A stretch of DNA of 39,623 nucleotides from Gluconobacter kondonii (lineage in GTDB: Bacteria > Pseudomonadota > Alphaproteobacteria > Acetobacterales > Acetobacteraceae). Shown in pieces: positions 10,250-39,623 of the stretch (positions within the stretch are counted from its first letter, which is position 1; every line of letters begins with the position of its first letter). The position numbers were made by a program, and so were the translations under genes. The notes below the pieces were generated by a model. That model saw only the letters and a program-made list of their open reading frames with translations. It did not search any database and was not told where the DNA came from. The stretch is taken from NCBI RefSeq assembly GCF_002723995.1, contig NZ_BEWP01000020.1, positions 1 through 39,623 of the forward strand, read 5' to 3'.

Positions 10250-10326
10250 ACTGAAAATATGGAAGGATCGAAGCCTTTACCTGCAGCATGGGCTTTGAGA
10301 TGCTTAGCCCTGATTTGAAAAGGACT

Positions 10327-10635
10327 CTAGGTCCCGTTGACAAGAGATTCAATCCAAAGCCTCGCGGCGGCGATATTGAGGAAGCTGATGAAGGACAAGG
10401 CGGTTTTGTCGTAGCGGGTTGCAATACGCCGCATCTGCTTGAGTTTGTTGAACATCTGCTCAATGCGATTGCGGTCTCTGTAACGCCGCCAGTCTGTTTT
10501 CTGTGGAACACTGCGGCCTTTTCGTGAGGGAATAACCGGCAGGATACCACGGAGCAGCAGATCCTGGCGGAACCAGTCGCTGTCATAGCCCCGGTCGGCC
10601 AGCATGGCTTTGGGGTTTGGAACCGCAAACGCCAT
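10327..10635 (-). CDS. IS5-family transposase OrfB, copy 1
   Basis: The C-terminal half, 102 aa from an internal ATG but probably made as an OrfAB fusion. It carries the second Asp in LADRGYDSDWFR and the Y-(2)-R-(3)-E-(6)-K signature in YRDRNRIEQMFNKLK. The reading frame has no stop within the element: the TAG at 10327-10329 is formed by the duplicated TA and one flanking base. The fused protein would be about 260 aa, normal for the family. Confidence 0.85.
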   Translation of the reverse strand: MAFAVPNPKAMLADRGYDSDWFRQDLLLRGILPVIPSRKGRSVPQKTDWRRYRDRNRIEQMFNKLKQMRRIATRYDKTALSFISFLNIAAARLWIESLVNGT

Positions 10636-14129: not shown

Positions 14130-14995
14130 GCAGCATCAAGACCGCCGAGCTCAATCTAATTGACGAGTTCCTCCGTGGTGAGAGCAAGGGATACGTTCTC
14201 GACTTCAGCAACCGCACGATGGGTGAATTCTTCCAGATTGAGTTCGACGTCGACCTGTATGGCGGGGATTATGAGACTGAAGGATCGTCGAAGGCCAGCC
14301 ACCTCCGCTGCTTCCTGAAGGCCGTGGACGATGCGACCGCAGCAAGAGCGCTCCGCCGGCTGAGCGAATACCGCAGCGCGATGAGGCGCAAGCCTCAGCA
14401 GGACATCTCCCCACTCGCCGAAGGGCAAGTGCTCGCGATCGTCAGCCGGCTGGAGAGCGGCGGGAACATCAACGGCGCACCACCCGTTCCGGTGTTCAAC
14501 CGGAAGGGCTTCGAGGCGCTACGCGACCAATTGAACTCGCTGTGGAAAATGGATCCACGCCCGCGAGGCTACGCCTTCGAGAAATATCTGAAGGTGCTGT
14601 TCGACACATTCGGACTCAAGGCGCGCAGGCCCTTCAGCCTGACGGGTGAGCAGATCGACGGCAGTTTTGACCTGAAGCACGAGACCTACCTGCTCGAAGC
14701 TAAATGGCATCAGGACAGGATTGGATCGGACGAGCTGCGTAGCTTCCAGGGCAAGGTCGACGACAAGGCCGCCTGGACGCGCGGTCTCTTCGTCAGCTTC
14801 GGCGGCTTCACCGATGTCGGGTTAGTCGCCTTCGGCCGAGGCAAGAAGGTTATCTGCATGGACGGGCAAGATATGTACGAAGCGCTAGACCGCAACATCC
14901 CAATCGACATCGTGCTCGAACGGAAGATTCGCCATGCCTCGGAGACCGGCCAGCCGTTTGCACCGGTAGCCGACCTGTTTCCCACGGAGAGCTGA
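14126..14995 (+). CDS. PD-(D/E)XK restriction-endonuclease-like protein
   Basis: A 289-aa protein. The C-terminal ~160 residues form a Mrr-like/PD-(D/E)XK nuclease: GYAFEKYLKVLFDTFG, the metal-binding Asp in GEQIDGSFDL, and the E-x-K motif in YLLEAKWHQD, followed by FQGKVDDKAAWTRGLFVSFGGF. The N-terminal half is helical and may bind DNA or a partner. The start at 14126 overlaps the UPF0489 stop (ATGA); a longer in-frame reading to 13811 merely shadows that gene. It closes a tightly coupled three-gene unit. It would cleave nucleic acid, but target and trigger are unknown. Anti-phage function is likely but inferred. Confidence 0.85.
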   Translation: MSSIKTAELNLIDEFLRGESKGYVLDFSNRTMGEFFQIEFDVDLYGGDYETEGSSKASHLRCFLKAVDDATAARALRRLSEYRSAMRRKPQQDISPLAEGQVLAIVSRLESGGNINGAPPVPVFNRKGFEALRDQLNSLWKMDPRPRGYAFEKYLKVLFDTFGLKARRPFSLTGEQIDGSFDLKHETYLLEAKWHQDRIGSDELRSFQGKVDDKAAWTRGLFVSFGGFTDVGLVAFGRGKKVICMDGQDMYEALDRNIPIDIVLERKIRHASETGQPFAPVADLFPTES

Positions 14996-17333: not shown

Positions 17334-18644
17334 TTACGTGCCTGCAGGAGCGGAATGGGCTCGTTTTTCACGTTCCGCTTCAGCCTTTGCCCTCGCTTCC
17401 GCCAGCCGAAACTCGGACACGCGCTCGATCACACCCAGAAACGCAGCGACGTTCGTCGCTGTGGGAGTCAGTTCGTAAAGCGGACATCCGCGATCTTTGT
17501 TGAGCGAAAAGCCCACCTTGCATGGTCCGTCATGCCGTTCCAGGCGGAGAAAGCGTCTCTCGTCGGGCTGGGCCGGAGCGCCAGCCGGATCCAGGCCCCG
17601 CCAGTAGGCCTGAACCGAGTGCTCGGGGCCAACCAGCGTCGTGGCCTCGGACATGAGGACTCGATCACAATCGGCCGTGCAAACATCCCGCATCTCTCCC
17701 GCCAACCGATCGAGGACAGGCACAAGAAGCAGCTCGATTACCTCATCCGGGAACGTCTTACCGTCATGCGACAGTGCCACCTTCAAGATGAGCGTGGTCA
17801 GCTCGTCGGCGCTTGTGACCTGGAGGGACGTCACGATCAGATGCGCGAAGGCCGCCAGGATCGGTTCCTCATCCAAGCCGACCTTTGAGACTCTGACGAA
17901 AAGATAGGAAAGGTTCGAGAAGGCAAGATGCGTCGTTTGCATCAATTCGGCCGGTGAAGCAGACGCGCCCCATGGTCGATCGACAATGCTGCCATGGGCG
18001 AACTCATTTGCGATGAGCGCGAAACGTGCCAGCGCATCAATCTCCATGGACTCCCGCGCGGTCCAAAACGTTCGAAGCGCCTTGGCGGGAGTGTATTCGA
18101 GCTTGCTCCAAAACCTCTCCTGCGCCGCCTTCAGGAGACCGGCTGGGCTAAGCGCTTCGGAAAATAGTCGCAGGACAACCGAGGGGTGCTTCGAGAGGAG
18201 CCGCTCCAACAGTTCGTGATCCCAAAGGCGGACGCGCGGCCACGGATGCGCTGCTTGCCAGCTTTTCACCCAGTCGCGGGTGGGGTTCGAGAACGTCGTG
18301 TTCGTCACCACGACAAGGTTGGCGAGTTCGCCATGAGCAGTGGCGTTGTTGACTGCGCTTTTCACCTCGTCGGGTTCGACCGTTCCTTTCCGACCCTTGC
18401 ACTCGATCCACCAACGCTGTGGGTCCATTTCGCCGTCCGGCGAAGGCACGTAGAATGTGGCTTCGAGATCACGGCCGCCGTCCGGAGCTCCGCCGCCGCT
18501 CCCGCCCGTGCGCCATTCGAGATCTCGCGCGCCCATGGCGTCCAGGAGCCAATAGACGCACTCTTCCAGGTCACGCGCCTTGAGTTTGGTGAAGGGAATG
18601 CTGGCCGGCAGGATCCACGAACTGGTCTCGGACTCGCTCATCAC
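17334..18644 (-). CDS. Restriction-endonuclease-like protein (Mrr-like N-terminus)
   Basis: A 436-aa protein with an N-terminal nuclease domain (residues ~15-160): LKARDLEECVYWLLDAMGARDLEWR, the Asp in GGRDLEATF, and the E-x-K triad in WWIECKGRKGTVEPDEVKSAV. LVVVTNTTFSNPTRDWVKSW follows, as in Mrr_cat-type domains that recognise foreign or modified DNA. The remaining ~270 residues are mostly helical and unrecognised. A smaller RHH-type gene diverges from its promoter. It shares orientation with the PIN gene downstream (118 bp gap). A type IV-like or conflict nuclease is the best guess. Confidence 0.8.
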   Translation of the reverse strand: MMSESETSSWILPASIPFTKLKARDLEECVYWLLDAMGARDLEWRTGGSGGGAPDGGRDLEATFYVPSPDGEMDPQRWWIECKGRKGTVEPDEVKSAVNNATAHGELANLVVVTNTTFSNPTRDWVKSWQAAHPWPRVRLWDHELLERLLSKHPSVVLRLFSEALSPAGLLKAAQERFWSKLEYTPAKALRTFWTARESMEIDALARFALIANEFAHGSIVDRPWGASASPAELMQTTHLAFSNLSYLFVRVSKVGLDEEPILAAFAHLIVTSLQVTSADELTTLILKVALSHDGKTFPDEVIELLLVPVLDRLAGEMRDVCTADCDRVLMSEATTLVGPEHSVQAYWRGLDPAGAPAQPDERRFLRLERHDGPCKVGFSLNKDRGCPLYELTPTATNVAAFLGVIERVSEFRLAEARAKAEAEREKRAHSAPAGT

Positions 18645-23610: not shown

Positions 23611-23658
23611 CTAGCGTCGGATTTTGGCGCATCGGAGGGTCGTCTGCTTGTCAGTCAT
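23611..23658 (-). CDS. Mini-ORF carrying the MTDKQTT tag
   Basis: A 15-codon ORF, MTDKQTTLRCAKIRR, encoded by an exact copy of the start repeat and ending at TAG 23611-23613. It precedes the 211-aa gene as the mini-ORF at 27541 precedes the 444-aa gene. It could be a leader peptide or a cassette junction scar. Its ATG lies in the last codons of the preceding short ORF. Confidence 0.45.
   Translation of the reverse strand: MTDKQTTLRCAKIRR
23639..23653 (-). repeat. Start-repeat copy on the minus strand (exact)
   Basis: TGACAAGCAGACGAC on the minus strand, identical to the core at 27026. Extended to the ATG and beyond, 22 consecutive bases match the 27021 copy. Its first three bases are the stop codon of the upstream short ORF. 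Confidence 0.85.
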
Positions 23659-24066: not shown

Positions 24067-24079
24067 AGCCTCAACGGCT

Positions 24080-24388
24080 TTAGGTCACGTTGACAAAAGA
24101 CCCAATCCAGAGTTTTGCGGCGGCGATATTGAGGAAACTCATGAAGGATAAGGCGGTCTTGTCGTAGCGGGTCGCTATGCGGCGCATCTGCTTGAGCCTG
24201 TTGAACATCCGCTCGATATGGTTGCGATCCCTGTAACGCCGCCAGTCTGTTTTCTGTGGAGCGCTGCGGCCTTTGCGTGATGGAATGACTGGCAGGATCC
24301 CGTGGACCAGCAGTTCCTGGCGGAAACTGTCACTGTCATAGCCCCGGTCGGCTAGCATGGCTTTGGGGTTCGGGACAGGTAGCTTCAT
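24080..24388 (-). CDS. IS5-family transposase OrfB, copy 2
   Basis: 102 aa from the internal ATG, with LADRGYDSDSFR and YRDRNHIERMFNRLK catalytic segments intact. The stop TAA at 24080-24082 is again supplied by the target TA plus one flanking base. The frame is undamaged, so this copy may be functional. Confidence 0.85.
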   Translation of the reverse strand: MKLPVPNPKAMLADRGYDSDSFRQELLVHGILPVIPSRKGRSAPQKTDWRRYRDRNHIERMFNRLKQMRRIATRYDKTALSFMSFLNIAAAKLWIGSFVNVT

Positions 24389-24945
24389 CAGGGCGTCTGT
24401 GGCTTTGTAATCCGAGACCTGGCCTCCGGTAAGGACAAAGCCGAGAGGGCGTCCCTGATTGTCACATCGGGCATGGATTTTGCTCGTAAAGCCGCCGCGT
24501 GACCGACCAAAAGCCTCCGAATGAGCCCCCCTTTTGCCCCAGTGGCTTGGGAATGGGCACGAACCACGGTGCTGTCGATCATATGCTGCCAGTTATCAGT
24601 CAGCCCCAGATCTACCAGGGTCTGTAAAAGAGCATCCCACACGCCCTGTTCAGCCCAACGCCGGAACCGGACATAGACCGAGTTCCACTTGCCGTAGCGT
24701 TCATGCATGTCCCGCCAGGGGCAACCCGTTCGTAGAACATGCAGCATACCATTGAAAAACTGGCGATTGTCTCTAGATGGACGTGCCCAACGTCCACGCT
24801 CAGGCGGCAGAAGCGGACCAATCATCGCCCATTCCTGATCCGTCAGATCGCCTCGTGCCATGCCTGTTCTCTCTGCTTTCTGTCCTACAGATACAAAGTG
24901 AATCAGATCTCAGGCAGACCGTATAGGCCTTTTGTCAACGTGACC
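24083..24945 (-). mobile_element. IS5-family element (IS427-like two-ORF type), copy 2
   Basis: 863 bp with perfect terminal inverted repeats GGTCACGTTGACAAAAG/CTTTTGTCAACGTGACC and flanking TA. Same length and orientation as copy 1 but visibly more diverged from copies 1 and 3 than they are from each other, so it is a separate isoform or an older insertion. It splits the minus-strand gene series of this block. Confidence 0.9.
24388..24861 (-). CDS. IS5-family transposase OrfA, copy 2
   Basis: 157 aa, collinear with OrfA of copy 1 (LTDQEWAMIGPLLPPERGRW, IDSTVVRAHSQATGAKG). The same A AAA GGG slippery heptamer follows the GAK codons, with GGGG extending it here. Beyond the slip site the zero-frame tail differs from copy 1, as expected for untranslated-frame sequence. 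Confidence 0.85.
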   Translation of the reverse strand: MARGDLTDQEWAMIGPLLPPERGRWARPSRDNRQFFNGMLHVLRTGCPWRDMHERYGKWNSVYVRFRRWAEQGVWDALLQTLVDLGLTDNWQHMIDSTVVRAHSQATGAKGGLIRRLLVGHAAALRAKSMPDVTIRDALSALSLPEARSRITKPQTP

Positions 24946-25022
24946 TACGCCTGTCAGAACCTTGCATGGTGGTAACGATGTCCTTTACGGGATTGCTCAT
25001 GATTTTCTCCATGTGTCCGGGA

Positions 25023-26297: not shown

Positions 26298-26349
26298 GGC
26301 GAATGCTTTCCTTGCTATATGTTGTCATCATAGGTTACAGCACAAAGAC

Positions 26350-26390
26350 TGTCAACAATGTTGACAAGAAAATGTCCGCCGTGATATAAA
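26350..26390 (+). promoter_or_regulatory. Promoter with overlapping palindromic operator upstream of the serine recombinase
   Basis: TGTCAACA-A-TGTTGACA (26350-26366) is a perfect 17-bp palindrome whose right half contains the -35 box TTGACA (26361-26366). ATATAA (26384-26389) follows with 17-bp spacing. A dimeric protein bound at the palindrome would block transcription of the recombinase and possibly of the divergent operon. Recombinase autoregulation is plausible. Confidence 0.6.
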
Positions 26391-26413: not shown

Positions 26414-27028
26414 TTGAAATTGTCAGATCGTTCACCGGAGCCTGTCCATCGCACGCTAATCGGATATGCCCGCGTGAGCACCAGCGATCAGAACAATCGC
26501 AGCCAGATCGACCGGCTGACCGAATTTGGCGTCGAACCAGCTGCGATATTCCAGGATAAGGCCAGCGGGAAGAACATGCAGCGTCCCGGCTGGAAACATT
26601 GCTGGAAGGAATTGCGTGACGGCGATGTTCTCGTTGTCACGGCGATAGACCGGCTTGGTAGAGACCTTGTTGAAGTGGTCCAGACGGTCAAGGCCCTGCA
26701 CGATAAGGGCGTTGATTTGAAGATTTTATCAATGGACCTCGACACACGGACGGCCACGGGGCGGCTGGTTTTTGCGATCATTGCCGCGATGGCGCAATGG
26801 GAGCGCGAGTTGATTGTGGAACGGACGGTCAACGGTCTCGCAGCGGCACGGGCGAGAGGCAAGACCGGAGGCCGCAAGGCCGTGCTGTCCGATGAGCAGG
26901 TGGCCGAAGCTATGGCGCGGATACAGGCCGGGGAGAAATCAGCCGAGGTTGCGGCAGCTTACGGGGTGACACGGCAAGCCATCTACCGGCGCGCCAGAAA
27001 CATGAGAAAGGATGACGCCAATGACTGA
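26414..27028 (+). CDS. Serine recombinase (resolvase/invertase family)
   Basis: A 204-aa small serine recombinase. The catalytic serine is in IGYARVSTSDQN, the arginine region is DVLVVTAIDRLGRDLVEV, and GRLVFAIIAAMAQWERELIVERT is the dimer helix. A C-terminal helix-turn-helix (SAEVAAAYGVTRQAIYRRARN) binds the site. The length is that of Tn3-type resolvases. The start is a TTG at 26414, or TTG 26420 with better spacing to AGGG. The stop codon is the TGA that opens the first start repeat. It heads the array of genes that share that repeat, so it is the obvious candidate enzyme for any rearrangement there. Plasmid resolution is the conventional alternative. Confidence 0.9.
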   Translation: MKLSDRSPEPVHRTLIGYARVSTSDQNNRSQIDRLTEFGVEPAAIFQDKASGKNMQRPGWKHCWKELRDGDVLVVTAIDRLGRDLVEVVQTVKALHDKGVDLKILSMDLDTRTATGRLVFAIIAAMAQWERELIVERTVNGLAAARARGKTGGRKAVLSDEQVAEAMARIQAGEKSAEVAAAYGVTRQAIYRRARNMRKDDAND

Positions 27029-27269
27029 CAAGCAGACGACCCAACAAGCAAAAATTGACGCCGTGAAAAGCGCCTTGGATTACGCGCAGCAATCAATGCA
27101 AACAGTTGTTCAAGAACTTGTTAAGCTCACGGACGCCTTCCCGCCTCCCGAAAATGAGGCGATAAGAAGGTTGAAAGAACGCCTAGGACTCATTGCCAAG
27201 AACTGGGACGACGCCTGCATTGCGGCTGAAGCCGATTTGCGAAGACTGCAATCTGGTTTTGAAGCATGA
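27021..27269 (+). CDS. Small helical protein with MTDKQTT tag
   Basis: 82 aa from ATG 27021. After the tag MTDKQTT the protein is helical and probably coiled coil (DAVKSALDYAQQSMQTVVQELVKL, IRRLKERLGLIAKNWDD). The start lies 5 bp before the recombinase stop, so translation is coupled. The stop overlaps the next ATG (ATGA). Function unknown. Confidence 0.65.
   Translation: MTDKQTTQQAKIDAVKSALDYAQQSMQTVVQELVKLTDAFPPPENEAIRRLKERLGLIAKNWDDACIAAEADLRRLQSGFEA
27026..27040 (+). repeat. Start-repeat copy 1 (exact)
   Basis: TGACAAGCAGACGAC. The leading TGA is the stop codon of the serine recombinase, while the overlapping frame gives the tag of the next gene. Confidence 0.85.
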
Positions 27270-27523
27270 AGGACACTGACAACGAGATGACCACCGAAAT
27301 GATTAGCGACGTCACGCGCGAGCGAGCCATATACGATAACTCGCCAAGGGCATACCGTAATGCACGGATTGAGGAAATGCGCCGCAAAGGCGCTACCTAC
27401 AAAGAGCTTGCCGAAAAGTTTTCCATTTCGATATCACGGGTTAGACAAGTAGTGGCAGTTCAGGAGCGACGGCGTCTCCACATGTTGAATCAGGTGGATG
27501 CTCCTCTTCGGCATGCGACCTAA
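27266..27523 (+). CDS. Small HTH protein with a degenerate tag
   Basis: 85 aa. The N-terminus MKDTDNEMTTEM looks like a diverged form of the tag, and the DNA matches the repeat core at 12 of 15 bases. The rest contains a helix-turn-helix like sigma region 4, IEEMRRKGATYKELAEKFSISISRVRQVV. It starts within the previous stop codon. It may regulate the array or the divergent promoter. Confidence 0.7.
   Translation: MKDTDNEMTTEMISDVTRERAIYDNSPRAYRNARIEEMRRKGATYKELAEKFSISISRVRQVVAVQERRRLHMLNQVDAPLRHAT
27277..27291 (+). repeat. Start-repeat copy 2 (degenerate)
   Basis: TGACAACGAGATGAC matches the core at 12 of 15 bases and occupies the same position relative to its ATG within a few bases. It may be an old copy or chance. 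Confidence 0.4.
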
Positions 27524-27540
27524 CAATCGAGGTGCACGCC

Positions 27541-27594
27541 ATGTTTGACAAGCAGACGACGATCTACAGTTTCAAGCAGAAGAAAAAGAGGTGA
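27541..27594 (+). CDS. Mini-ORF carrying the tag, leader of the 444-aa gene
   Basis: A 17-codon ORF, MFDKQTTIYSFKQKKKR, with AGGTG ahead of its ATG and TGA at 27592-27594. The next gene starts 7 bases later with its own GAGGTGA inside the end of this mini-ORF, so translation could be coupled. It parallels the mini-ORF at 23611-23658. Confidence 0.5.
   Translation: MFDKQTTIYSFKQKKKR
27546..27560 (+). repeat. Start-repeat copy 3 (exact)
   Basis: TGACAAGCAGACGAC inside the mini-ORF start. Here the leading TGA does not end an upstream gene; the previous gene stops 18 bp earlier. Confidence 0.85.
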
Positions 27595-27601
27595 GACACG
27601 C

Positions 27602-28936
27602 ATGCTTTGGCAGGGAAAAAAGGCACAACGAACTCAGCCCCGGAATGTGACGCAGATCGGACAAGATGACTTACGAACAATTATCTCAGCATACGTCCAG
27701 TCTAACGACGAAGAAGGGTATGTTGACATAATAAACGACGTCGGCGGCGAGAACAATGACGATTGGCTCTATTGTGACTGTCAAGGACCTGTTGCTGGGT
27801 TAAGAGGTTTCCCTCCAGCATTTACTACACGCACCAACAACAAACTCGTTCGGTTAGCAGCGCCTTGGGGCGCTCATGCGACAGAGTGCCCGTTTTACAT
27901 AAAGCCGTCAGAGCATCGCGCTGGGAAAAAGTCTCACCGAAAACCGAGCGAAACACAGAAAGTAAAACTGACAGGCCCTTTTGGTGTCGAGATCGACAGC
28001 AATGTTCGTGCCCAAGCTCCGCAACAGGGGGGCGGCGTGCAGCGAAGAAACAGTCTCGCCGAAGTCCTTATGAGGCTCATAGATACTTCATACTCCAATT
28101 GGCTGTCGCTTGACGACCAGCATCAGGATGACAACGCAACATCGGACGACGCCCTTTCCCGGCTCTGGCGCGCCGGCAAGAAAATCCCTCTGGAAGGGAG
28201 GGGACACCTTAGCGAGATTCTCTTTACTAACTTGGATTGGCTTCCTCAGAGGCTGGAGAAGATCAAAGAGCGAAATGAGTCTTGGGAAAAAGGTCCACGC
28301 CCATTCCAAATCCTAATCACACTTGCGGATGAGATCGCACCTCACGCATTCCGAGCCCTCAATGGCCAAAAATATGAAGTGCAGAATCATCTGGCAGTAT
28401 TCGGCGAACCTCTCACACAAGAAGATCGAGTAGCAGCCACTCGGGCACCCTGGGTCGTCATTTGCCTGCTCGCATCCAACACACAAGAGAATGATCCTGC
28501 AATTCTACGTGCATACGCACACCCAGTTTATTCGACCACCCGGCTTATGCCGGTTGACAGTAATTACGAGCGAATCACTTTAACTGTGATAGTCGACGCT
28601 CTCTCTAGGTTAACGGACCACGAGAATTATCATGTAATCAAGCCAGTGTTTGATGCTGATAAAGCTCCAGCTGATGCCCCTGGGCCTGTCATTCCAGATT
28701 TCATTGTAACACGAAAACGCGACGAAGACGCCGGTAAACTGCGTCGAGCTGGCACACGCCTGTTGGTTGAGACAATGGGATACAACGATCCAATGTATCG
28801 TGAACGTAAAAATCTGATGCATGAGTTAATGAAAATTGCGTTTCGCGTTCAAGAGGTTGTCACCCATGATTTCACTCTCAACGAAGACCGAGACGATATC
28901 TTCGTTAGGAACTTACTCGAGGCTCTTGGCGAATGA
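27602..28936 (+). CDS. Large hypothetical protein with Cys/His N-terminus, nuclease-like C-terminus
   Basis: 444 aa from ATG 27602. Near residues 57-100, WLYCDCQG and, further on, GAHATECPFY form a Cys/His pattern that could bind zinc, somewhat like DUF1173 proteins. The middle is helical. Near the C-terminus, PDFIVTRKRD followed by RLLVETMGYNDPMYRERKNLMHELM has Asp and Glu positions compatible with a degenerate PD-(D/E)XK fold. I cannot assign it firmly. GAGGTGA precedes the start. It lies behind the tag mini-ORF in the serine recombinase array. Confidence 0.6.
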   Translation: MLWQGKKAQRTQPRNVTQIGQDDLRTIISAYVQSNDEEGYVDIINDVGGENNDDWLYCDCQGPVAGLRGFPPAFTTRTNNKLVRLAAPWGAHATECPFYIKPSEHRAGKKSHRKPSETQKVKLTGPFGVEIDSNVRAQAPQQGGGVQRRNSLAEVLMRLIDTSYSNWLSLDDQHQDDNATSDDALSRLWRAGKKIPLEGRGHLSEILFTNLDWLPQRLEKIKERNESWEKGPRPFQILITLADEIAPHAFRALNGQKYEVQNHLAVFGEPLTQEDRVAATRAPWVVICLLASNTQENDPAILRAYAHPVYSTTRLMPVDSNYERITLTVIVDALSRLTDHENYHVIKPVFDADKAPADAPGPVIPDFIVTRKRDEDAGKLRRAGTRLLVETMGYNDPMYRERKNLMHELMKIAFRVQEVVTHDFTLNEDRDDIFVRNLLEALGE

Positions 28937-29068
28937 TCGAGCGCCTGCTGACAGCACATTAGCCGAAGATCAACGACCATATGGCATTCCAGCTCCAGCA
29001 ACAGCGATTCTTACGTCATGTTGAGATCGTAACGACAGGTTGAATCCTTTTTCTCGTACGTCCTCTTT

Positions 29069-29097
29069 TTGGTCGTATGATGCGAGCAGACGATAAT
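29069..29097 (+). promoter_or_regulatory. Candidate internal promoter for the last three tagged genes
   Basis: TTGGTC (29069-29074) and GATAAT (29092-29097) are separated by 17 bp and lie 27 bp upstream of ATG 29124. The 28937-29123 gap shows no ORF worth reporting. Confidence 0.4.
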
Positions 29098-29123
29098 CGC
29101 CTGCATTAAAGTGGAGCAAACGA

Positions 29124-29459
29124 ATGACTGACAAGCAAACGACCGGAGAAGAATCATGGGACTATCCTCCTCATGAGAATTGGGGGAACGCGGCTCAGAT
29201 ATTGAATGACAAGGGATGGTTCTCCGAATATTCTGGCGTACCCTTTTTTGCGCGAGCGTTTATGCGCAAAAACCGGGAGAAAATCCTCCACAAGTTGGCG
29301 CAAGACGCCGACCTTAAGGCCGGCTCCCTCTCATATCTGGAGACAACCTGGTCTGGGGCTGCTGGTTGGGCAATTTGTCATCAAGATTTTTACTCCTCTG
29401 AGGCCGCCGAGATAAAACTGGAGGCTGAGATACGGGAGGGTAACAGGGATGACCTGTGA
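29124..29459 (+). CDS. Hypothetical protein with MTDKQTT tag
   Basis: 111 aa. After the tag, SWDYPPHENWGNAAQILNDKGWF and FARAFMRKNREKILHKL are followed by an acidic helical end. No family recognised. GGAG lies upstream of the ATG. Its stop codon TGA (29457-29459) is the first triplet of the next start repeat. Confidence 0.6.
   Translation: MTDKQTTGEESWDYPPHENWGNAAQILNDKGWFSEYSGVPFFARAFMRKNREKILHKLAQDADLKAGSLSYLETTWSGAAGWAICHQDFYSSEAAEIKLEAEIREGNRDDL
29129..29143 (+). repeat. Start-repeat copy 4 (one mismatch)
   Basis: TGACAAGCAAACGAC, one base from the core; the change is silent (CAG to CAA, both Gln), so the tag is kept. Confidence 0.8.
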
Positions 29460-29868
29460 CAAGCAGACGACCCAAGATCGCAATTCAACCATCAAGACTT
29501 TTTACCACGCGACAAACTTCGAAAATGAGCGAAGTATTCGACGGCAGGGACTTATTCCCAAGGCACGGAATTACGTGCCTTGGGCCGAAGAGCCCAGGGT
29601 TTGGTTATCAGACGATCGAGACCACATTTACGGCGATATTATCTATAAGATTATCATGGACGTGGAGCGTGAGGGGGGGAAGCTAACGCCTACTGGTATG
29701 GTTGGAAACGGGAGGGGTGGGTATCCAGAATGGGCGTATGACGGAAACATTCCATTTTCTAGCCTTACCGAAATTTATCGGAGAAGTGATACCGCTCGCG
29801 CACCGCAACATGGTTTTATAATGCGAACGCTCAAGCGTTTATTTGGGGAGCGCGAGCGTGACGACTGA
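29449..29868 (+). CDS. Tagged protein with an ADP-ribosyltransferase-like segment
   Basis: 139 aa, MTCDKQTT tag. The segment TFYHATNFENERSIRRQGLIPKA followed by VWLSDD resembles the first strands of ADP-ribosyltransferase-like folds such as DarT or KptA, where HxT and a helix ending in GL are typical. A matching catalytic Glu cannot be picked by eye. The start is 11 bases before the previous stop. The stop TGA is again the first triplet of the next repeat. A toxin or effector role is possible but inferred. Confidence 0.6.
   Translation: MTCDKQTTQDRNSTIKTFYHATNFENERSIRRQGLIPKARNYVPWAEEPRVWLSDDRDHIYGDIIYKIIMDVEREGGKLTPTGMVGNGRGGYPEWAYDGNIPFSSLTEIYRRSDTARAPQHGFIMRTLKRLFGERERDD
29457..29471 (+). 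repeat. Start-repeat copy 5 (exact)
   Basis: TGACAAGCAGACGAC; the leading TGA terminates the 111-aa gene, and the start ATG lies 8 bases upstream because of a 3-base insertion that adds a Cys codon. Confidence 0.85.
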
Positions 29869-30433
29869 CAAGCAGACGACGAATTATCACTCGGAGTTTT
29901 TAACCGCATATGAGCGGACAAAAAATTTGGGACTAAATTGTCCTCCGTTCACATCAGAATTGGCCGGGAAGTTATGCTCACCGACGTTTTTGAGAGAATT
30001 TCCTTATTTAATACGAGACAATACCAACGTGTTGTCGCCTGCTGATTTGGCGCATCAATGTTTATACGTCAATTTTTTGATAAAAGATATCATATCAAAG
30101 CGCCTTAACTGTGAAGTTTACTACACTATCGGATGGATAGATTGTGATGATGGCGATCCAATGTATAAGTTCGATGACGAATATATTTCGACCGCTCTTG
30201 CACATTACGGTTCAACGCGGGGGGCTTTGAAAGTGCATGCGTGGTTAACCCTCCCTACTATGGAGGTAATTGATCCTACGCTGGCGACGTCAATCGCCCT
30301 CGTCCAAAATAAGCCGAATGGGCTTGGCGGAGTGATCGCTGGAAAAGCCGACGATCTTCAAGGCTTTAGTTACAGGCCGATGTTGATCGGCATGGATTTC
30401 CTAGTGCGAACCGGTGGCATGGTAGTGGCTTGA
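29858..30433 (+). CDS. Tagged hypothetical protein, last of the array
   Basis: 191 aa from GTG 29858 with GGGGAG upstream; tag TTDKQTT. The arrangement SPADLAHQCLYVNFLI, then LKVHAWLTLPTMEVIDPT, recalls Cys-His-Asp enzymes of the papain/transglutaminase type, in which H-x-W and IDxT are typical. The match is suggestive only. AT-rich codon use compared with the dnaE2 cassette downstream. It ends the series; nothing with the tag follows. Confidence 0.6.
   Translation: MTTDKQTTNYHSEFLTAYERTKNLGLNCPPFTSELAGKLCSPTFLREFPYLIRDNTNVLSPADLAHQCLYVNFLIKDIISKRLNCEVYYTIGWIDCDDGDPMYKFDDEYISTALAHYGSTRGALKVHAWLTLPTMEVIDPTLATSIALVQNKPNGLGGVIAGKADDLQGFSYRPMLIGMDFLVRTGGMVVA
29866..29880 (+). repeat. Start-repeat copy 6 (exact)
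   Basis: TGACAAGCAGACGAC; the leading TGA terminates the 139-aa gene and the tag starts from GTG. Confidence 0.85.
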
Positions 30434-30727: not shown

Positions 30728-33700
30728 CTACCGAAAGTCCCGTGCCTTCAACAGCTCCGATCCCTGAAGCAACGGCGTTCTGTCTTCCAGGCTGAGCACA
30801 ACGACATGGATCACCTCGCCTTCCTTTTGCAGCCTCCCCTTACAGGCCAGCAGACGGGACGCGAGAAGAGGACGGCGGTGTTTCTCCTGCACATCCTTCC
30901 AGACAATCAGATTGGCCGTACCGGTTTCGTCTTCGATCGTGACGAACATGGTGCCGTTGGCCGTCCCTGGCTTCTGCCGCATCAACACCAGTCCGGTGAG
31001 CTGGATCCGGCGTCCGTCCCGCAGATACGGAAGATCCCCGCAACGAACGATCCCTTCTTTTCGCAGGCCCTCTCGGAGAAACGCGACGGGATGCCCGTTC
31101 AGACTGAGTCCCGTCGCCCGGTAGTCCTCATGCACTGAGGCCCGCTCTGACATCTGCGGCAAGGCAATCTGAGGCTCGATCACTTCCGGCAGCGGAAAGT
31201 TCCGCCCCCGATCCGCCGCCTCAAACAGTGGCAGGGCGGTATCCGCCAACGCCTTGATTGACCACAGGGCAGCTCGACGCATTTGTCCGAACACCCGAAA
31301 CGCATCAGCCTCCGCCAGACATTCCAGGGCCGAGACCGGCACATCCGCACGGCGCCAGACATCATCAATACTCTCATAGTCCGGCATCCGGGCCGCAATC
31401 AGGGCCGCGCCGTGTCCGTTTGCCAGTCCCTTAACCATCCGAAAGCCCAGCCTGACCGCCGCGTGCCGTCCGTTCCGGCCGCGCTCCAGTGTGCAATCCC
31501 ATCGGGAGGCGTTGATGCAGATCGGCCGGACCTCGACCCCATGGCGCTGTGCGTCCTGAACAATCTGCGAGGGCGCATAAAATCCCATGGGCTGGCTGTT
31601 CAGCAGGGCGGCACAGAACACATCCGGGTAGTGACACTTCATCCACGCCGAGGCATAGGCAATCAGGGCAAACGACGCCGCGTGGCTTTCCGGGAAACCA
31701 TAGCTGCCAAAGCCTTCGAGTTGCGCGAAGGTCTGTTCAGCAAACTCCTGCTCATAGCCATTGGCCAGCATCCCGTTGACCAGCTTATCCCGGAACGGTG
31801 ACACCCCACCTGTCATTTTGAATGTTGCCATCGCACGGCGGAGCTGGTCCGCCTCGCCTGGCGTGAAACCCGCGCAATGGATTGCCACCTGCATGGCCTG
31901 CTCCTGGAACAGGGGCACCCCCAGTGTTTTCCCCAGGATCCCGCGCAGGGTCTCGGACGGGTAGGTGACAGGCTCCAGTTTCTCCCGCCGCCTCAGATAA
32001 GGATGGACCATGTCGCCTTGGATCGGCCCCGGCCGGACGATCGCCACCTGAATCACCAGATCATAGAAGGTCCGGGGCTTCATGCGTGGCAGCATCGACA
32101 TCTGCGCCCGGCTCTCGATCTGGAACGTGCCAAGCGTGTCCGCCTTCTGGATCATGCGATAGGTCTGCGGATCCTCGGCCGGGATCGCGGCGAGATCCAT
32201 CCGCGTCTGATACACGGTGTGCAGCAGCTCAAATCCGCGACGCAGACAGCCGAGCATTCCCAAGCCCAGAACGTCCACCTTCATGAACCGCAACACGTCG
32301 ATGTCATCCTTGTCCCAGACGATGATCTGCCGCCCGTCCATGGCGGTGGGCATCAAAGGGACGAGTTCATCCAGGCGATCCTCGGTCAGCACAAATCCGC
32401 CCGGATGGGTGCCTAGCTGGCGCGGAAAGCCGAGAAGCAGGCGCGCGAGATGGAATGTCAGGCTAAGGCGGCGATCCTTCAGGTTCAGGCCAAGATCGGC
32501 CGCACGCGCCTTGCACAGATCGGGATCCGCGAGAGACGAGGCGATGTGTTTTGAAAGCTGGCCGGTCAGATCCTCCGGCAGGCCCAGAACCTTACCCACT
32601 TCCCGCAACGCGCCTTTGGGCTGATAGCGCTGCACGGTCGCGCACAGGGCCGCGCGGTGGCGGCCGTAGTGTCGGTAGATCCACTGGATGACCTCTTCGC
32701 GGCGGTCACTCTCGAAATCCACGTCAATATCCGGGGGCTCCTGCCGTTCGGCCGAGAGGAACCGCTCGAACAGCAGACCTGAGCGAACCGGATCAATACT
32801 CGTGATTCCCAGGACGTAGCAGACGGCCGAGTTCGCGGCAGATCCCCGCCCCTGACAGACAATCCCAAGCGAGCGGGCATGGCGGACAATGGTATTCACG
32901 GTCAGGAAATACGGCGCGTAGGACAGAGAGCCGATCAGCCTCAGCTCGTGGGCAATCTGCGTCTCGACGTCAGGCGGCGCCCCGGCCGGGTAGCGACGCG
33001 GCAGTGCGGTCTGGACCAGGCGTGTCAGGGTGTCCTGAGCGCTTTCGCCTGTGCGCTCGGTTTCGGTCGGATACTGGTACGTCAGGTCATCGAGACTGAA
33101 GGCGCAGGCCTCGGCAATCCGCCGCGTGTTGGCCAGAGCGTCCGGAAAAGCAGCGAACAGGCGTGCCTGCTCTTCGGGCGCTTTCAGATGGCGGTCGGCG
33201 TGAACGTGACGGCGGTTGCCGAGAGCATCGACGGTGCAGCCTTCCCGGATCGCCGTGACGACGTCCTGAAGAACGTGCCGACGTGCATCATGGTAGAGCA
33301 CATCTCCCGTCACAACGCAGGCCAGACCGTGGGCCGCACTGAAGGCTGCAAGCGCGTGAAGCCGCGCCAGATCTCCAGGCTGGCGAAGCATGGTCAGAGC
33401 GAGAAACCGGCTCTTTTCTTCGCCTGCCCTTTGTCCCGGCAGATCCAGCAGGCTCTGAACGTGCCCGGGAAGTGCTGCCAGATCCTCGGGCGGCAACAGG
33501 ATCAGGACGAGGTCCGGGGCCGCTGTAACGAGATCCTCCCATCCCAGAAGGAACACGTCCCGCTCGCCCCGATGATGGCCAAGGGTTAGGAGCTGACACA
33601 GACCCGCCCAGCCTGCGCGATTGCGGGGATAGGCCAGAAGCGCGCTGCCATCGCGCAGAGCCAGACGGCATCCGGGCAGGAGACGCAGACCGGCCTCGCG

Positions 33701-33868
33701 CGCCGCCAGATGGGCGCGGATTACTCCGGCTACAGTGTTCCAGTCGGCAAGACCGATGGTGTCATAGCCCAGGGCTTTCGCCTGGAACATCAGTTCATCC
33801 GGCTGGCTGCCGGAGCGCAGGAATGAAAACGAAGACGTCACCTGCAATTCGACATAAGGCGCGCTCAT
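30728..33868 (-). CDS. dnaE2: Error-prone DNA polymerase DnaE2 (ImuC)
   Basis: A 1046-aa C-family polymerase that performs mutagenic lesion bypass with ImuA and ImuB. The N-terminal PHP domain begins [21 protein letters not shown]. The palm domain includes [20 protein letters not shown] and the catalytic aspartates in PDIDVDFES at about residues 380-384. The C-terminal OB-fold is visible as [31 protein letters not shown]. Length is normal for DnaE2. It follows the 79-aa ORF by 3 bp at the end of the imuA-imuB operon under the LexA box. Plasmid location implies that transfer could confer SOS mutagenesis. Confidence 0.95.
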
Positions 33869-33871
33869 GGC

Positions 33872-34111
33872 TCAGCGCCTGTGCGGATGCGGATGCGGGT
33901 GCCGGCTGCTGTCAGGCGCGTTGCTGGTCGGCGCGCGCATGACCACGAATCCCGAGCGTTCGAGATAGGCGACCAGCCGTTCGGACACGAGACGGGCCAT
34001 CAGCTCGGCGGCATCATGCGTGCGCCTGCGTCCGTCGTAACAGAGTGCGTGCATCAGGACTTCCGCCACGTCCGAGGTGCTGGCCGGGATCAGATCGTCA
34101 CGGGCATCCAT
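33872..34111 (-). CDS. Small ORF between imuB and dnaE2
   Basis: 79 aa starting MDARDDLIPASTSDVAEVLMHALCYDG and ending in a His/Pro-rich tail (PHPHPHRR). The ATG overlaps the imuB stop (TGATG) and dnaE2 starts 3 bp after its stop, so it is a fully coupled member of the operon. The helical core (AAELMARLVSERLVAYLERSGFVV) suggests a small adaptor. It is not part of the classical three-gene cassette. Function unknown. Confidence 0.7.
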   Translation of the reverse strand: MDARDDLIPASTSDVAEVLMHALCYDGRRRTHDAAELMARLVSERLVAYLERSGFVVMRAPTSNAPDSSRHPHPHPHRR

Positions 34112-35640
34112 CAGAAGATCCCCTGAAGAAACCACGCGCCTGACCCGGACCAGTCGTGGGTTCCGTCGCCTTTGCGAAACAGCCACAGGCGCAGGCCGGT
34201 CGTGGTCTCGACCTGCCAATAATCGCGGATGGCGCCATAGTTATCGGTGGTCTGCCACCATTCACCCAACAGACGTTCGGGGCCATCGGCCGCCGCGACG
34301 CGATGCGTCTGCCGCTTGAGGACGAACTGGCGGGGCGCACCGTCCGGGAGCAGGGCGGTGACCTGCACCCGGACGGGCAGATCGAACAGAATGTTCGGTC
34401 GCGCCCAGAGCATCTGGCTCGCGTTCGTGGACTCTGCCACGTCGCCGGGAGAAATGCGAGATTGTCCATCTTCGGGCCAGGCAGAAAACCGGGGTGCGAA
34501 CTGCTGGACCGAAACAACCCCCGGACGGTTCAGCAGCCGGTCGATCAGAGTGGCCGGGAGGCCCGTTTCAGAGGATCCAGCTTCGTCCGGCAGGACAGAC
34601 CGCTCAGCCCCGGCTTCGAGCGGTTCGTTTGCGCTGACGGTCAGGATGACGGTTTCAATTCCAAACTCGGGCGCGATTTGCGGGATATGGTCTCCCAGCA
34701 GGCGCATCAGACGTGTCACGTCAGCCGTCGGATCGGATGTCCCCACGCGGATGGCCTGAATGGATCCGTCCACGCGCACGCAGAGAAAGTCGAGCTGCCG
34801 CGCCCCCTCCCCGCGCGCCGTCAGCTTTTCGCAGACAACTGGCACAAGTGCGGCAATCACCGTGGCAATGGCGTCCGGTGTGCTGATGGGCTCGACCAAA
34901 GACCGGGTCAGGGAAATCCGGTCCGCAGGTTGAAACACGCTGAGCGGACTGGCCTGCCGTCCGAGAGCCTCATCGAGACAGGTGAGAAGCTGCGCCCCAA
35001 ATCGCCTGGCCAGAGGCGCGCGAGGGAGGTCTGCAAGGGCGCCAATGGTGGTCAGGCCGAGCCGTGTCAAACTGGCCAGTGTTTTTTCCGGCAGAGGAAG
35101 TTCTGAACAGGGCAACGGATGCAGAGCCTGTTTCTGCTGACCGGGAGGCACGAGACAGATCTGGTCGATCCCCGAGCGGGCCAGGGCGCGTGAGGCAGCG
35201 GCCGTATCGCTCAGCGCCACGGAGCAGGAATGCCCCCTCGCCTTCAGGCGTTCCCTGACGAGATCCAGCATGGCCGCTTCACCGCCGTACAGATGGGCGC
35301 ATCCGGTGGTGTCGCTGTAGAGCCCGTCCGGAGCGTCGAATGCGGGCAGCGGCGACAGCCAGATCAGCCAGGAGCAGAGATCGGTCAGCGCTGCCCTCTG
35401 TGCTTCGGCGTCCTCTTCTGCCGTCAGAAGATCCGGAACCAGGGAGCGGGCCTGTGCCAGCGGCATTCCGGGTGTCAGTCCGGCCGCGAGCGCAGCCGGA
35501 CTGACACCGGTGACGGCGTGACGGTTATGTGCCAGCGCGTGCACAATGAGTGGCCTGTCGATCGGGAAGTCTCCCGGGCGGGAAAGCTGGAGGCGCTCGG
35601 TGCGCCAGAATGGCATCCAGAGAGCGAGAAAGCGGCGCAT
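34111..35640 (-). CDS. imuB: ImuB, inactive Y-family polymerase-like protein
   Basis: A 509-aa Y-family homologue that bridges ImuA, DnaE2 and the sliding clamp. The N-terminus MRRFLALWMPFWRTERL lacks the DinB-type acidic metal ligands, as expected for ImuB. Family segments GLTPGMPLAQARSLVPDL and GLYSDTTGCAHLYGGEAAML follow, then the helix-hairpin-helix-like LTRLGLTTIGALADLPRAPLARRFG. The C-terminal part carries the little-finger-like domain. It overlaps imuA by 116 bp. Confidence 0.93.
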   Translation of the reverse strand: MRRFLALWMPFWRTERLQLSRPGDFPIDRPLIVHALAHNRHAVTGVSPAALAAGLTPGMPLAQARSLVPDLLTAEEDAEAQRAALTDLCSWLIWLSPLPAFDAPDGLYSDTTGCAHLYGGEAAMLDLVRERLKARGHSCSVALSDTAAASRALARSGIDQICLVPPGQQKQALHPLPCSELPLPEKTLASLTRLGLTTIGALADLPRAPLARRFGAQLLTCLDEALGRQASPLSVFQPADRISLTRSLVEPISTPDAIATVIAALVPVVCEKLTARGEGARQLDFLCVRVDGSIQAIRVGTSDPTADVTRLMRLLGDHIPQIAPEFGIETVILTVSANEPLEAGAERSVLPDEAGSSETGLPATLIDRLLNRPGVVSVQQFAPRFSAWPEDGQSRISPGDVAESTNASQMLWARPNILFDLPVRVQVTALLPDGAPRQFVLKRQTHRVAAADGPERLLGEWWQTTDNYGAIRDYWQVETTTGLRLWLFRKGDGTHDWSGSGAWFLQGIF

Positions 35641-36349: not shown

Positions 36350-36414
36350 AAATATTTTATGATTGCAAGCGTTTTCCAAATTACCCGATAAATTATATTA
36401 CCGGGTTTCAATAA

Positions 36415-36442
36415 AAACCGGATAAACCATCAAACCGGATTA
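36415..36442. repeat. Partition-type motifs downstream of parB
   Basis: AAACCGGATAA (36415-36425) and AAACCGGATTA (36432-36442) match the motif array upstream of parA. Related sequences lie just before (36380-36409) and the set is repeated in unit 2 (about 36697-36759). Confidence 0.55.
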
Positions 36443-36470
36443 TTTTCTTTATACAGCTTCCATGCGTCTT

Positions 36471-36728
36471 CTATGACAACGCCTGGGTAACGCCTCGCCT
36501 AGTTGCTTCCTCAGCGATTTCGTCAGAGACGTTGGGAAATACCTTAGCGTGTAGTTTTCCTGTTCGAGGACTGGGTAGGCGTCCTCTACGTTTCGCTGGC
36601 TCTCTAGCTACGAAACCATGATCCGCAGCTACGCGATCAACTTGTTCGACATCGGCGGCGAAGGCGGCTTTTTTTCGCGCGATCTGAGCTTTCCAAATTA
36701 CCCGATAAATTATATTACCGGGTTTCAA
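36471..36728 (-). pseudogene. Duplicated parB copy, truncated and frameshifted
   Basis: 85 codons from a TTG. The shared body (ADHGFVAREPAKRRGRLPSPR, HAKVFPNVSDEIAEEATRRGVTQ) is that of parB, but its first residues come from the duplication junction. A lost base (GCCTGGG against ACCTTGGG in unit 2) changes the end to ALS, so the C-terminal helix is missing. Probably non-functional. Confidence 0.7.
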
Positions 36729-36746
36729 TAAAAACCGGATAAACCA

Positions 36747-37043
36747 TCAAACCGGATTATTTTCTTTATACAGCTTCCATGCGTCTTCTATGACAACACC
36801 TTGGGTAACGCCTCGCCTAGTTGCTTCCTCAGCGATTTCGTCAGAGACGTTGGGAAATACCTTAGCGTGTAGTTGTCCTGTTCGAGGACTGGGTAGGCGT
36901 CCTCTACGTTTCGCTGGCTCTCTAGCTACGAAACCATGATCCGCAGCTACGCGATCAACTCGTTCGACATCGGCGGCGGAGGCGACTTTTTCGCGCGATC
37001 TGAGCTTTCCAACATCAATCGCAAAAGGCTTTTTTTCGGTCAT
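36747..37043 (-). CDS. parB: ParB-like RHH partition protein
   Basis: 98 aa with a basic disordered N-terminus (REPAKRRGRLPSPRTG) and a C-terminal ribbon-helix-helix-like unit, HAKVFPNVSDEIAEEATRRGVTQGVVIEDAWKLY. It would bind the centromere and stimulate the ParA ATPase. The ATG overlaps the parA stop (ATGA), so the pair is coupled. A second, broken copy follows. The name parB is functional, since it is not related to the chromosomal ParB family. Confidence 0.75.
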   Translation of the reverse strand: MTEKKPFAIDVGKLRSREKVASAADVERVDRVAADHGFVAREPAKRRGRLPSPRTGQLHAKVFPNVSDEIAEEATRRGVTQGVVIEDAWKLYKENNPV

Positions 37044-37702
37044 TCTGCCGCTCCTGTAAGGCGTCGGTACACAGCTTGTGCAAAGCCATCGGCGTTTTCG
37101 ATCGCTGCCACAATGTTACCTTGTGGCGGGATCGAATGAAGATCTCCACCGAACTCGAAAAGAGCGGAAAATGCAGCACGCTCCATTAAAGGCGGCGTAA
37201 TCACGTCCACGCCTGAGTCCCTTAGTGAGGCTTCAATGCCTGAATGCTGTTTGGAACGAATTGCTCGTGTCATTGTAAAAACAACTGAGTGAGGAATCTT
37301 GCGCCCTAAAGACTCTTCTTCCTCCGCTACTAGGGCAAGGGCTCTTGCTCCTATCGTAGCGTCTAAGGTTGTCGCTCGCATGGGTGTTAAGACCAAATCT
37401 GCTTGAGAGATTGCGCGTGAAACCAATCTTGACGCGACGCCTTCCAAATCGACAATGACAATTTTTCCATCAGCATCATGCCTTTTGATCGTCTTTATAA
37501 TGTCGCTTTCGGAGACCCTAGTTATCAGGCTGATTCTGGGTGGCTTGGGCGCGCGGTCAGCCCATAAAGTCAGCGCTTCGTTCGGGTCGCAGTCTAACAG
37601 AGTTACCTCTGCGCCGTAGTGCGCAAGCTGGGTTCCCAAGATAACAGCAGTAGTCGATTTTCCAGCGCCGCCTTTGGGGGACGCGATAGCAATCACAGGC
37701 AT
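37040..37702 (-). CDS. parA: ParA/VirC1-type partition ATPase
   Basis: 220 aa with the deviant Walker A motif PKGGAGKSTT at residues 9-18, LLDCDPNEALTLWA (Walker A'/switch), and Walker B IVIVDLEGVAS, followed by ADLVLTPMRATTLDA. The lack of an N-terminal DNA-binding extension places it with the short ParA/VirC1 group. It drives plasmid partition with the RHH protein downstream. Upstream lie repeated AAACCGGATAA motifs that are probably operator and centromere. Confidence 0.9.
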   Translation of the reverse strand: MPVIAIASPKGGAGKSTTAVILGTQLAHYGAEVTLLDCDPNEALTLWADRAPKPPRISLITRVSESDIIKTIKRHDADGKIVIVDLEGVASRLVSRAISQADLVLTPMRATTLDATIGARALALVAEEEESLGRKIPHSVVFTMTRAIRSKQHSGIEASLRDSGVDVITPPLMERAAFSALFEFGGDLHSIPPQGNIVAAIENADGFAQAVYRRLTGAAE

Positions 37703-39286: not shown

Positions 39287-39346
39287 GCGTTAGGGCATAA
39301 GCGTTCCCTATTATGTTCATAAACTGATGTCGCACAGAAAGTACTA

Positions 39347-39623
39347 GGTACCGTTGACAAGAGATTCAATCCAAAGCCTCGCGGCGGCGATATTGAGGAA
39401 GCTCATGAAGGACAAGGCGGTTTTGTCGTAGCGGGTTGCAATACGCCGCATCTGCTTGAGTTTGTTGAACATCCGCTCAATGCGATTGCGGTCTCTGTAA
39501 CGCCGCCAGTCTGTTTTCTGTGGAACTGCGGCCTTTTCGTGAGGGAATAACCGGCAGGATACCACGGAGCAGCAGATCCTGGCGGAACCAGTCGCTGTCA
39601 TAGCCCCGGTTGGCCAGCATGGC
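39347..39623 (-). mobile_element. IS5-family element, copy 3, cut by the window edge
   Basis: The end GGTACCGTTGACAAGAG follows a TA and the sequence is nearly identical to copy 1 over 277 bp. A two-base deletion near 39525 (AACTGCGG against AACACTGCGG) shifts the OrfB frame, so YRDRNRIERMFNKLK is no longer in frame with the upstream half. This copy is therefore defective. The stop codon TAG is again partly supplied by the target. The right end lies outside the window. Confidence 0.88.

Follow-up and report, generated by a model that had tools for sequence, protein, structure and literature searches.

A 22-bp repeat at gene starts as the probable exchange boundary of a cassette array headed by a small serine recombinase in Gluconobacter kondonii

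To our knowledge, the known platforms for gene cassettes and modules (integrons, dif modules) depend on tyrosine recombinases and on sites between genes. Sites of invertases and resolvases are dyads of ~26 bp for inversion or resolution, and in Min-type systems one serine recombinase uses several sites and recombines inside coding sequence. In this study, a stretch of 39,623 nucleotides from Gluconobacter kondonii (contig NZ_BEWP01000020.1; the whole stretch is referred to as the window) was analyzed. It contains a 22-bp repeat, hereafter the tag, at the heads of consecutive, unrelated genes behind a gene for a small serine recombinase. We regard the tag as the probable boundary at which the cassettes of a gene array are exchanged; the head recombinase is predicted to use it for site-specific recombination, in the manner of an integron integrase.

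Gin/Hin invertases, gamma-delta/Tn3 resolvases and the Min/Cin systems have the enzyme family and domain make-up in common with this locus, which differs in its many direct tags that bound unrelated genes and form no dyad. Unlike in Min/Cin and shufflons, tags are mostly direct in arrays, and gene bodies are exchanged, not alternative gene ends; a few opposite-strand tags exist, e.g. in the window and at loci L057 and L171 (compared loci and genomes are given by L and G numbers). Integrons and clusters of attC sites lacking integron integrases (CALIN), as defined in the available sections of PMC12444791, are alike in the array of small cassettes, the site at one cassette end, the head recombinase with an adjacent site, the unrelated cargo (toxin-antitoxin and defence genes included) and the occurrence of arrays without a recombinase. 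They differ in using the tyrosine recombinase IntI, where a small serine recombinase is found here. The tag is moreover a linear 22-bp block without attC-like folding that takes in the start codon and coding sequence; the head tag is located downstream of the recombinase gene, unlike attI. The integron integrase model TIGR02249 scored over its curated cut-off in 0/13 tag-bearing genomes; weaker matches occurred in 13/13 of these and in 14/14 controls, as expected from other tyrosine recombinases.

The pdif modules of Acinetobacter plasmids are likewise gene modules, often toxin-antitoxin, that are bounded by short sites and shuffled among plasmids. According to the available sections of PMC13141974, pdif sites are 28-bp XerC-6-XerD sequences (11-6-11) in alternating orientation, whereas tags stand head-to-tail at gene starts, and no 11-6-11 XerC/XerD arms were found in the tag consensus. 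Start-associated sequences of cluster K mycobacteriophages are also short asymmetric repeats at the starts of unrelated genes, in which the stop of the previous gene may fall (PMC3203893, available sections). They comprise 13 bp upstream of the start codon, with AGGAG among them; a role in translation initiation was proposed, homologous recombination was considered merely possible, and no linked recombinase is named in those sections. The tag block differs in that it runs from the start codon into the gene and does not occupy the upstream position of the ribosome-binding site (RBS). No system of the kind described here was found in the open-licence PubMed Central literature, as judged by title or abstract opening.

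Repeat copies and homology switches at the tag

A first-pass annotation of the window had described a 15-bp repeat, TGACAAGCAGACGAC, exact at 27026, 27546, 29457 and 29866, with one mismatch at 29129 and three at 27277. All of these copies were recovered, along with the exact one on the minus strand at 23639-23653. The repeat is real and beyond chance, the 7 matches in the window comparing with a shuffle mean of 1.05 (0/100 shuffles reached 7). DKQTT was read in frame at all copies but 27277 (DNEMTT), as had been stated. Six copies adjoin gene starts 3' of the serine recombinase gene, and the seventh lies on the other strand at 23658. Three details of the description changed. The conserved unit is longer than 15 bp, running from the start codon to two bases past ACGAC. 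At 27026 (the recombinase), 29457 and 29866 the preceding open reading frame (ORF) is terminated by the tag's TGA; at 23639 on the minus strand a 73-codon open frame ends in this TGA, without a recognisable gene. Copies do lie at gene starts, except that at 27541 the tag opens merely a 17-20-codon ORF, and an ORF of 444 amino acids (aa) begins inside the cassette at 27602. The window's own genome held no further copy of TGACAAGCAGACGAC with 0-1 mismatches. Allowing up to 2 mismatches gave six extra matches, all with 2, which were taken as background because the reversed control pattern yielded 15; the array of the window is therefore the sole real cluster in that genome.

The tag is a 22-bp block, ATG-N-CTGACAASCARACGAC-CR. 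The consensus of 89 aligned seeds was ATG[A/G/C]CTGACAA[C/G]CA[G/A]ACGACC[G/A], with little information on the flanks and a weak purine-rich stretch at -17 to -13. A weight matrix made from these seeds found 112 sites above 16 bits vs 0 in reversed sequence (39 loci, 555 kb, fetched for their tags); ~2 of 123 matches above 13 bits are expected as background. At masked positions, the first Thr codon was ACG in 95/105 tags (38% usage in long ORFs) and the Asp codon GAC in 92/106 (52%), and these fixed wobble bases indicate that constraint acts on the DNA besides the protein. Counting the tag from index 0 (A of ATG) to 21, ATG is in frame 0 and TGA occurs at index 1-3 and 5-7, i.e. in both other frames. 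The stop of the tag-opened ORF was a tag TGA in 17/69 traceable intervals (11 at +8, 6 at +4). An in-frame start within 6 codons was present in 112/119 tags, and in 74 of these it is the first codon of the tag itself; the other 7/119 had none. Folding of the attC kind was absent (mean z -0.15, -0.12 and +0.04 in three windows, 117-118 tags, top strand, RNA parameters).

Homology at the tag was compared through the 70-bp flanks of all tag pairs (119 tags, 37 loci). The left flank only was shared by 38 pairs, the right only by 17 and both by none, i.e. 55/55 were one-sided. The pair, interval, codon, control-start and switch-point counts exclude L182 and L172, which are sister copies of L059 and L170; with sister copies kept, 58/62 pairs were one-sided, and the 4 two-sided pairs were those sister loci. 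Ordinary starts of the same 37 loci were two-sided in 19/27 pairs (non-overlapping ORFs of at least 80 aa) and in 15/20 (120 aa). When all ORFs were used, 47/60 pairs were two-sided; that control holds spurious ORFs within genes, which favour two-sided pairs, and it was therefore repeated with the non-overlapping ORFs. Gene order between relatives is thus not fixed at the tag (0/55 two-sided vs 19/27).

Among array loci, 47/166 alignment ends fell no more than 10 bp from a tag in each of the two sequences; tags cover 3.1% of the zone, which is the share expected for one sequence. At least one end lay in a tag in both sequences in 40/83 alignments, and both ends in 7. In the window, 27276-27560 matched the Acetobacter orientalis plasmid AP018516 from tag to tag at 79.0%, so that a relative of cassette 2 stands there among other neighbours. 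The recombinase genes of the window and of an A. vaccinii plasmid are alike to 27041, within tag 1, and then diverge. DNA preceding tag 4 (29044-29143) was 74% like G337 until the tag. A tag-to-tag match of 232 bp links a cassette of G798 with the A. vaccinii plasmid, and a 283-bp cassette occurs twice in G277 (99.6% identical) with different DNA afterwards. The stretch with the PIN-domain gene of the G782 member recurs before different genes in G791, G782, G790 and G801, and the stretch with the PemK gene of G777 does so in G777, G791 and G784. Such comparisons show that a cassette starts with the final bases of one tag and extends across the gene to the next tag, and that cassettes have changed neighbours at the tag. 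DNA ahead of the minus-strand tag (23808-23654) was 72% like a G801 cassette, whose protein is 41% like a G337 protein, and resembles a decayed cassette in a different reading frame.

The place of the switch was narrowed by pairs with the closest flanks. Five pairs with nearly identical right flanks differed at index 3 (5/5), 11 (4), 12 (3) and 14 (4), once each at 15 and 17, and never at 18-21; the cassette to the right of a tag therefore moved without the tag's left part. In eight pairs whose left flanks are alike, differences fell at index 21 (7), 20 (3) and 19 (2), never at 15, 17 or 18, and also at 11 and 14 (3 each) and 16 (2). The best-supported position of the switch, as judged from these differences, is between index 14 and 19, in ACGAC (27036-27040 of tag 1), near the right end. 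If GA at index 17-18 were the core, geometry would give one conserved 12-bp left arm, TGACAASCARAC; a 12-bp arm before the core is the spacing of small serine recombinases.

Cassettes between tags are small and their contents diverse. The 73 same-strand tag-to-tag intervals of up to 3 kb had a median of 341 bp (118-1909) and were arranged head-to-tail on one strand. The tag opened an ORF of at least 40 aa in 66/112 cases and a short leader in the remainder. BLASTP grouped 96 cassette proteins (a few nested frames included) into 73 families, 17 of which comprise at least two members; two of the 17 depend in part or entirely on matches at E 3-4e-4. After copies, overlapping frames and short pieces were removed by hand, 75 proteins were aligned and shared MxDxQTT, followed by no majority residue save single G and P columns (mean column identity 5%). 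The proteins had been called unrelated after the tag, which held, and paralogous duplication was rejected on the 73 families among 96 proteins. Cargo with Pfam matches comprised PIN (4), MazE (2), PemK, HigB, Fic, TraB/PrgY, DsrE and an AAA ATPase beside DUF4276. The last pair scores as HEC-01A/HEC-01B in PADLOC and stands shortly after the recombinase in the G277 array (L055 14480-16251, minus strand). The six cassette proteins of the window had no PADLOC match at E 0.01. Among the matches listed, database relatives numbered 5 for the cassette 2 protein, itself included, and the cassette 5 protein had only itself. Plasmid searches with arrays (best 15 of 374 and best 15 of 361) returned relatives of HigBA and VapBC from beyond Acetobacter and, within it, a single cassette match; another plasmid search with an array gave no match.

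Recombinase linkage and distribution of tags

The protein at the head of the array had been named a serine recombinase, which its domains bore out (Resolvase PF00239, 3.8e-42; HTH_7 PF02796, 1.3e-6), with a tag at its gene end. Ser22 (204-aa reading) lines up with the serine of YVRVS/YARVS in DNA-invertase and resolvase and is presumably the catalytic serine; a Resolvase domain with this serine and HTH_7 places the protein among the small serine recombinases. The closest PDB entries were the DNA-invertase entries 4m6f and 3uj3, which we take to be Gin, and gamma-delta resolvase.

Orthologues were 84-92% identical in A. vaccinii, G277, G300 and G805 and 57% in G256. In 6/6 loci read, the window included, a tag lay within 15 bases of the recombinase end (scores 35.1, 28.5, 26.6, 25.9, 13.3 and 8.4, one of them thus weak), vs 0/26 for paralogous recombinases (50% identity or less; best score 3.8), each gene end being scored from -60 to +120. 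In a tree of 43 sequences, the six tag-linked recombinases fell in a 17-row branch (support 100/100) with all 26 paralogues outside. The 26 paralogues were also checked for repeated starts 3' of the gene, and one locus, L089, had an internal repeat. More database relatives of the recombinase exist, among them relatives at 71-73% in Asaia and one at 58% in a metagenome-assembled genome of Verrucomicrobiae. Searches with the G256 region and with the Asaia recombinase gave, among the matches listed, one weak match in Sulfitobacter besides matches at the level of the recombinase. Some tag clusters have no recombinase linked to them, and in G781 and G388 apparently only the 3' end of the recombinase is left, preceding a tag.

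The region ahead of the recombinase gene is conserved in five loci. TTGACA-18-TATAAA points toward the recombinase (26361-26390), an opposed TTGACA-17-TATGAT (26355-26327; score 11/12) points away, and a dyad, CTGTCAAC-N3-GTTGACAA at 26349-26367, is common to both promoter-like sites. GTTGACAA and TATAAA were identical in 5/5 orthologous loci. A promoter scan of the region found no excess (5 vs 4.1 in shuffles), under a rule that omits TATAAA. We infer promoter function from these elements; the dyad could possibly serve autoregulation or recombinase binding. TGACAA of the tag recurs in this dyad, which is only a lead because it overlaps the -35 hexamer there.

The tag was then counted across genomes, with one genome per species. 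ATGACTGACAAGCAGACGAC, with up to 2 mismatches, was present in 14/397 Acetobacteraceae genomes (28 matches vs 1 for the reversed control). ATGACTGACAASCARACGACC was found in 14/49 genomes in the genus of G333 (27 matches vs 4 in the control) and ATGVCTGACAASCARACGACC in 11/14 genomes in the genus of G277 (34 vs 0 reversed). In 385 genomes drawn from the class, ATGVCTGACAASCARACGACC matched in the window's own genome and in six others with one match each, vs 2 in the control. A search of Acetobacteraceae for the extended repeat, as the first-pass annotation had suggested, thus finds it in many genomes. Beyond the family, the tag search returned 12 stretches, 3 of which were named Acetobacteraceae (L014, L016, L024); the other 9, from outside Acetobacteraceae, were taken as chance, ~15 being expected for such a pattern by our own estimate. 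Single tag matches were seen in three contigs of metagenome-assembled genomes, the deltaproteobacterial L013 and the planctomycete L017 and L020 (scores 33.4, 33.0 and 33.2); those in L013 and L017 begin with ATG and that in L020 with GTG. L017, L020 and L021 contain a second, weaker match of 14-18 bits. The viral contigs searched had no recombinase relative and no exact tag. In L170 (8207-9148) and L172 a tag, possibly a stranded one, precedes a 313-aa ORF with a signal-peptide-like stretch, identical in G784 and G786.

Features and surroundings of the array in the window

Coordinates of the array are given in Table 1. The assignment of cassette 5 rests on NF002013 (E 0.0012, below its cut-off) and PF01885 (E 0.06).

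Table 1. Tags, cassette ORFs and head region of the array, with positions in the window and tag scores in bits.
Feature	Position	Strand	Remarks
Conserved region ahead of recombinase	26327..26390		Promoter-like sites and dyad
Serine recombinase, 204 or 202 aa	26414..27028	+	TTG start 26414 or 26420; stop TGA in tag 1
Tag 1, head site	27021..27042	+	Score 35.1; overlaps 3' end of recombinase gene
Tag 2, degenerate (DNEMTT)	27272..27293	+	Score 18.4
Tag 3 (MFDKQTT)	27541..27562	+	Score 25.9; opens short leader ORF 27532-27594
Tag 4	29124..29145	+	Score 36.1
Tag 5 (MTCDKQTT)	29452..29473	+	Score 20.7
Tag 6 (GTG start, MTTDKQTT)	29861..29882	+	Score 29.1
Other-strand tag, detached from head	23637..23658	-	Score 35.1
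Cassette 1 ORF, 85 aa, MTPMTDKQTT...	27012..27269	+	No family over cut-off
Cassette 2 ORF, 85 aa, helix-turn-helix-like	27266..27523	+	Sigma70_r4, 1.4e-4, below curated cut-off
Cassette 3 ORF, 444 aa	27602..28936	+	No family found
Cassette 4 ORF, 111 aa	29124..29459	+	No family; stop within tag 5
Cassette 5 ORF, 139 aa	29449..29868	+	Weakly like RNA 2'-phosphotransferase; stop within tag 6
Cassette 6 ORF, 191 aa, last of the array	29858..30433	+	No family

Where the array ends, it borders on the 3' end of a gene for a dnaE2-like polymerase (30731-33868, minus strand), behind which lies an impB/mucB-family gene (34114-35640, PF00817). DNA related to this region (30728-35640) was found beside the A. 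garciniae array (L016 6349-8000) and on the same contig as the G277 array (L103 9058-5486), so the dnaE2-like/impB region may be a preferred neighbour of the platform. Copies of an insertion sequence (IS) with a DUF4096 transposase lie at 24078-24947, 10325-11194 and 39344-39623. The copies at 24078 and 10325 are 83.8% identical and those at 10325 and 39344 97.9%; the one at 24078 lies within the detached minus-strand part of the array and apparently interrupts a gene there. A direct duplication of ~320 bp (97.5% identical, 36373-37012) near a ParA-like gene (37043-37702) suggests a plasmid maintenance region. Two genes with an Mrr_cat restriction-endonuclease domain lie at 13811-14992 (plus strand) and 17337-18644 (minus strand).

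Explanations of the array and their implications

Integron-like shuffling with a serine enzyme and with sites in coding sequence, as the first-pass annotation had proposed, is supported by the one-sided homology of every flank-sharing tag pair (55/55) and by the recombinase link (6/6). The linked recombinase is inferred to catalyze tag exchange by way of circular cassettes. It would pair two direct tags and excise the intervening cassette as a one-site circle. Circles would be inserted at the head tag, the main entry site, which lies at the end of the recombinase gene, either overlapping it or next to it, and the recombinase promoter would read into the array and drive the first cassettes. As cassettes end with a tag, each carries at its 3' end the RBS, start codon and tag that are used by its downstream neighbour. 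A newly inserted headless gene would in this way be put in frame behind a start codon, and the two out-of-frame TGA triplets of the tag could terminate the preceding gene. Tag clusters without a recombinase would be stranded or trans-mobilised arrays.

Several results weigh against this account. A close orthologue of the recombinase (E 1e-46 or better) was missing from most tag-bearing genomes, e.g. tags in 14/49 and recombinase in 2/49 genomes in the genus of G333, and 11/14 vs 2/14 in the genus of G277. In G256, whose recombinase is 57% identical, a weak tag (8.4 bits) stands at the end of that gene and good tags follow ~500-720 bp on, and the six tag-linked recombinases are not one clade within their branch, because 11 database homologues of unread context sit there too. 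The tag has no dyad of the small-serine-recombinase type (the best centre pairs 3.6/12 columns). At most one conserved 12-bp arm fits, a right arm to match the left being absent, and this is the chief puzzle about the mechanism. When all 38 left-sharing pairs were taken together, agreement was close to that of unrelated pairs at index 11 (0.42 vs 0.39) and 14 (0.50 vs 0.45), and no rise was seen at index 5, 7, 8, 9 and 11; support for the switch point therefore comes mainly from the five pairs that share the right flank. Of the array alignments, 43/83 lacked any end placed in a tag of both sequences. Tag pairs and alignments are not independent, so that the binomial figure for alignment ends is descriptive and no test. 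Seeds and loci were chosen by a DNA pattern of the core, so that its conservation is in part a product of the search; the masked positions are free of this. For the G777 array no clean empty site was found, its flanks lying apart in relatives.

Exchange of tags by homologous or short-homology recombination (RecA or end-joining), with the recombinase as an ordinary resolvase borne at the head, is improbable. It would fit the lack of a close orthologue in most tag-bearing genomes and a tag without a recombinase-like dyad. A tag of 22 bp with several differences is short for RecA, however; the five clearest pairs switch at one end of the tag and are not spread across it, and tags at gene ends accompany one recombinase branch.

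We give very little credence to the tag as a conserved translation-start signal only, with a gene order that varies for ordinary reasons. Tags do stand at gene starts after a purine-rich stretch, nearly always with an in-frame start within 6 codons (112/119), and the cluster K repeats are likewise start-linked (PMC3203893, available sections). However, the conservation that is found falls past the start codon, wobble bases included, and 7 tags are out of frame with any nearby start. Homology is one-sided at 55/55 tag pairs vs 8/27 at ordinary starts, and the recombinase link (6/6 vs 0/26) would be left unexplained. The one-sided homology, the constancy of the wobble bases and the comparison with ordinary starts led us to reject a translation signal on its own. 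Recognition of tags by another enzyme (host XerCD, a transposase or an unlinked recombinase), which the tag clusters without a linked recombinase would allow, is equally hard to credit, given the lack of an 11-6-11 XerC/XerD structure as in pdif (PMC13141974, available sections), the 73 intervals that run head-to-tail on one strand without alternating, and an integron integrase over cut-off in 0/13 genomes (weaker matches in 13/13, controls 14/14).

Exchange at the tag by the linked serine recombinase remains the favoured explanation. With somewhat less confidence, we lean towards a third, independently evolved cassette platform (a "serine integron") that would capture headless genes at a site in the start of the next gene and recognise essentially one half-site. 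If true, a serine recombinase platform with sites in gene starts would mean that cassette capture arose more than once and that the problem of expressing captured genes was solved in a new way, and it would offer a small site for in-frame gene stacking. For acetic-acid bacteria, the tagged arrays open a pool of uncharacterised small genes, toxin-antitoxin and anti-phage genes included.

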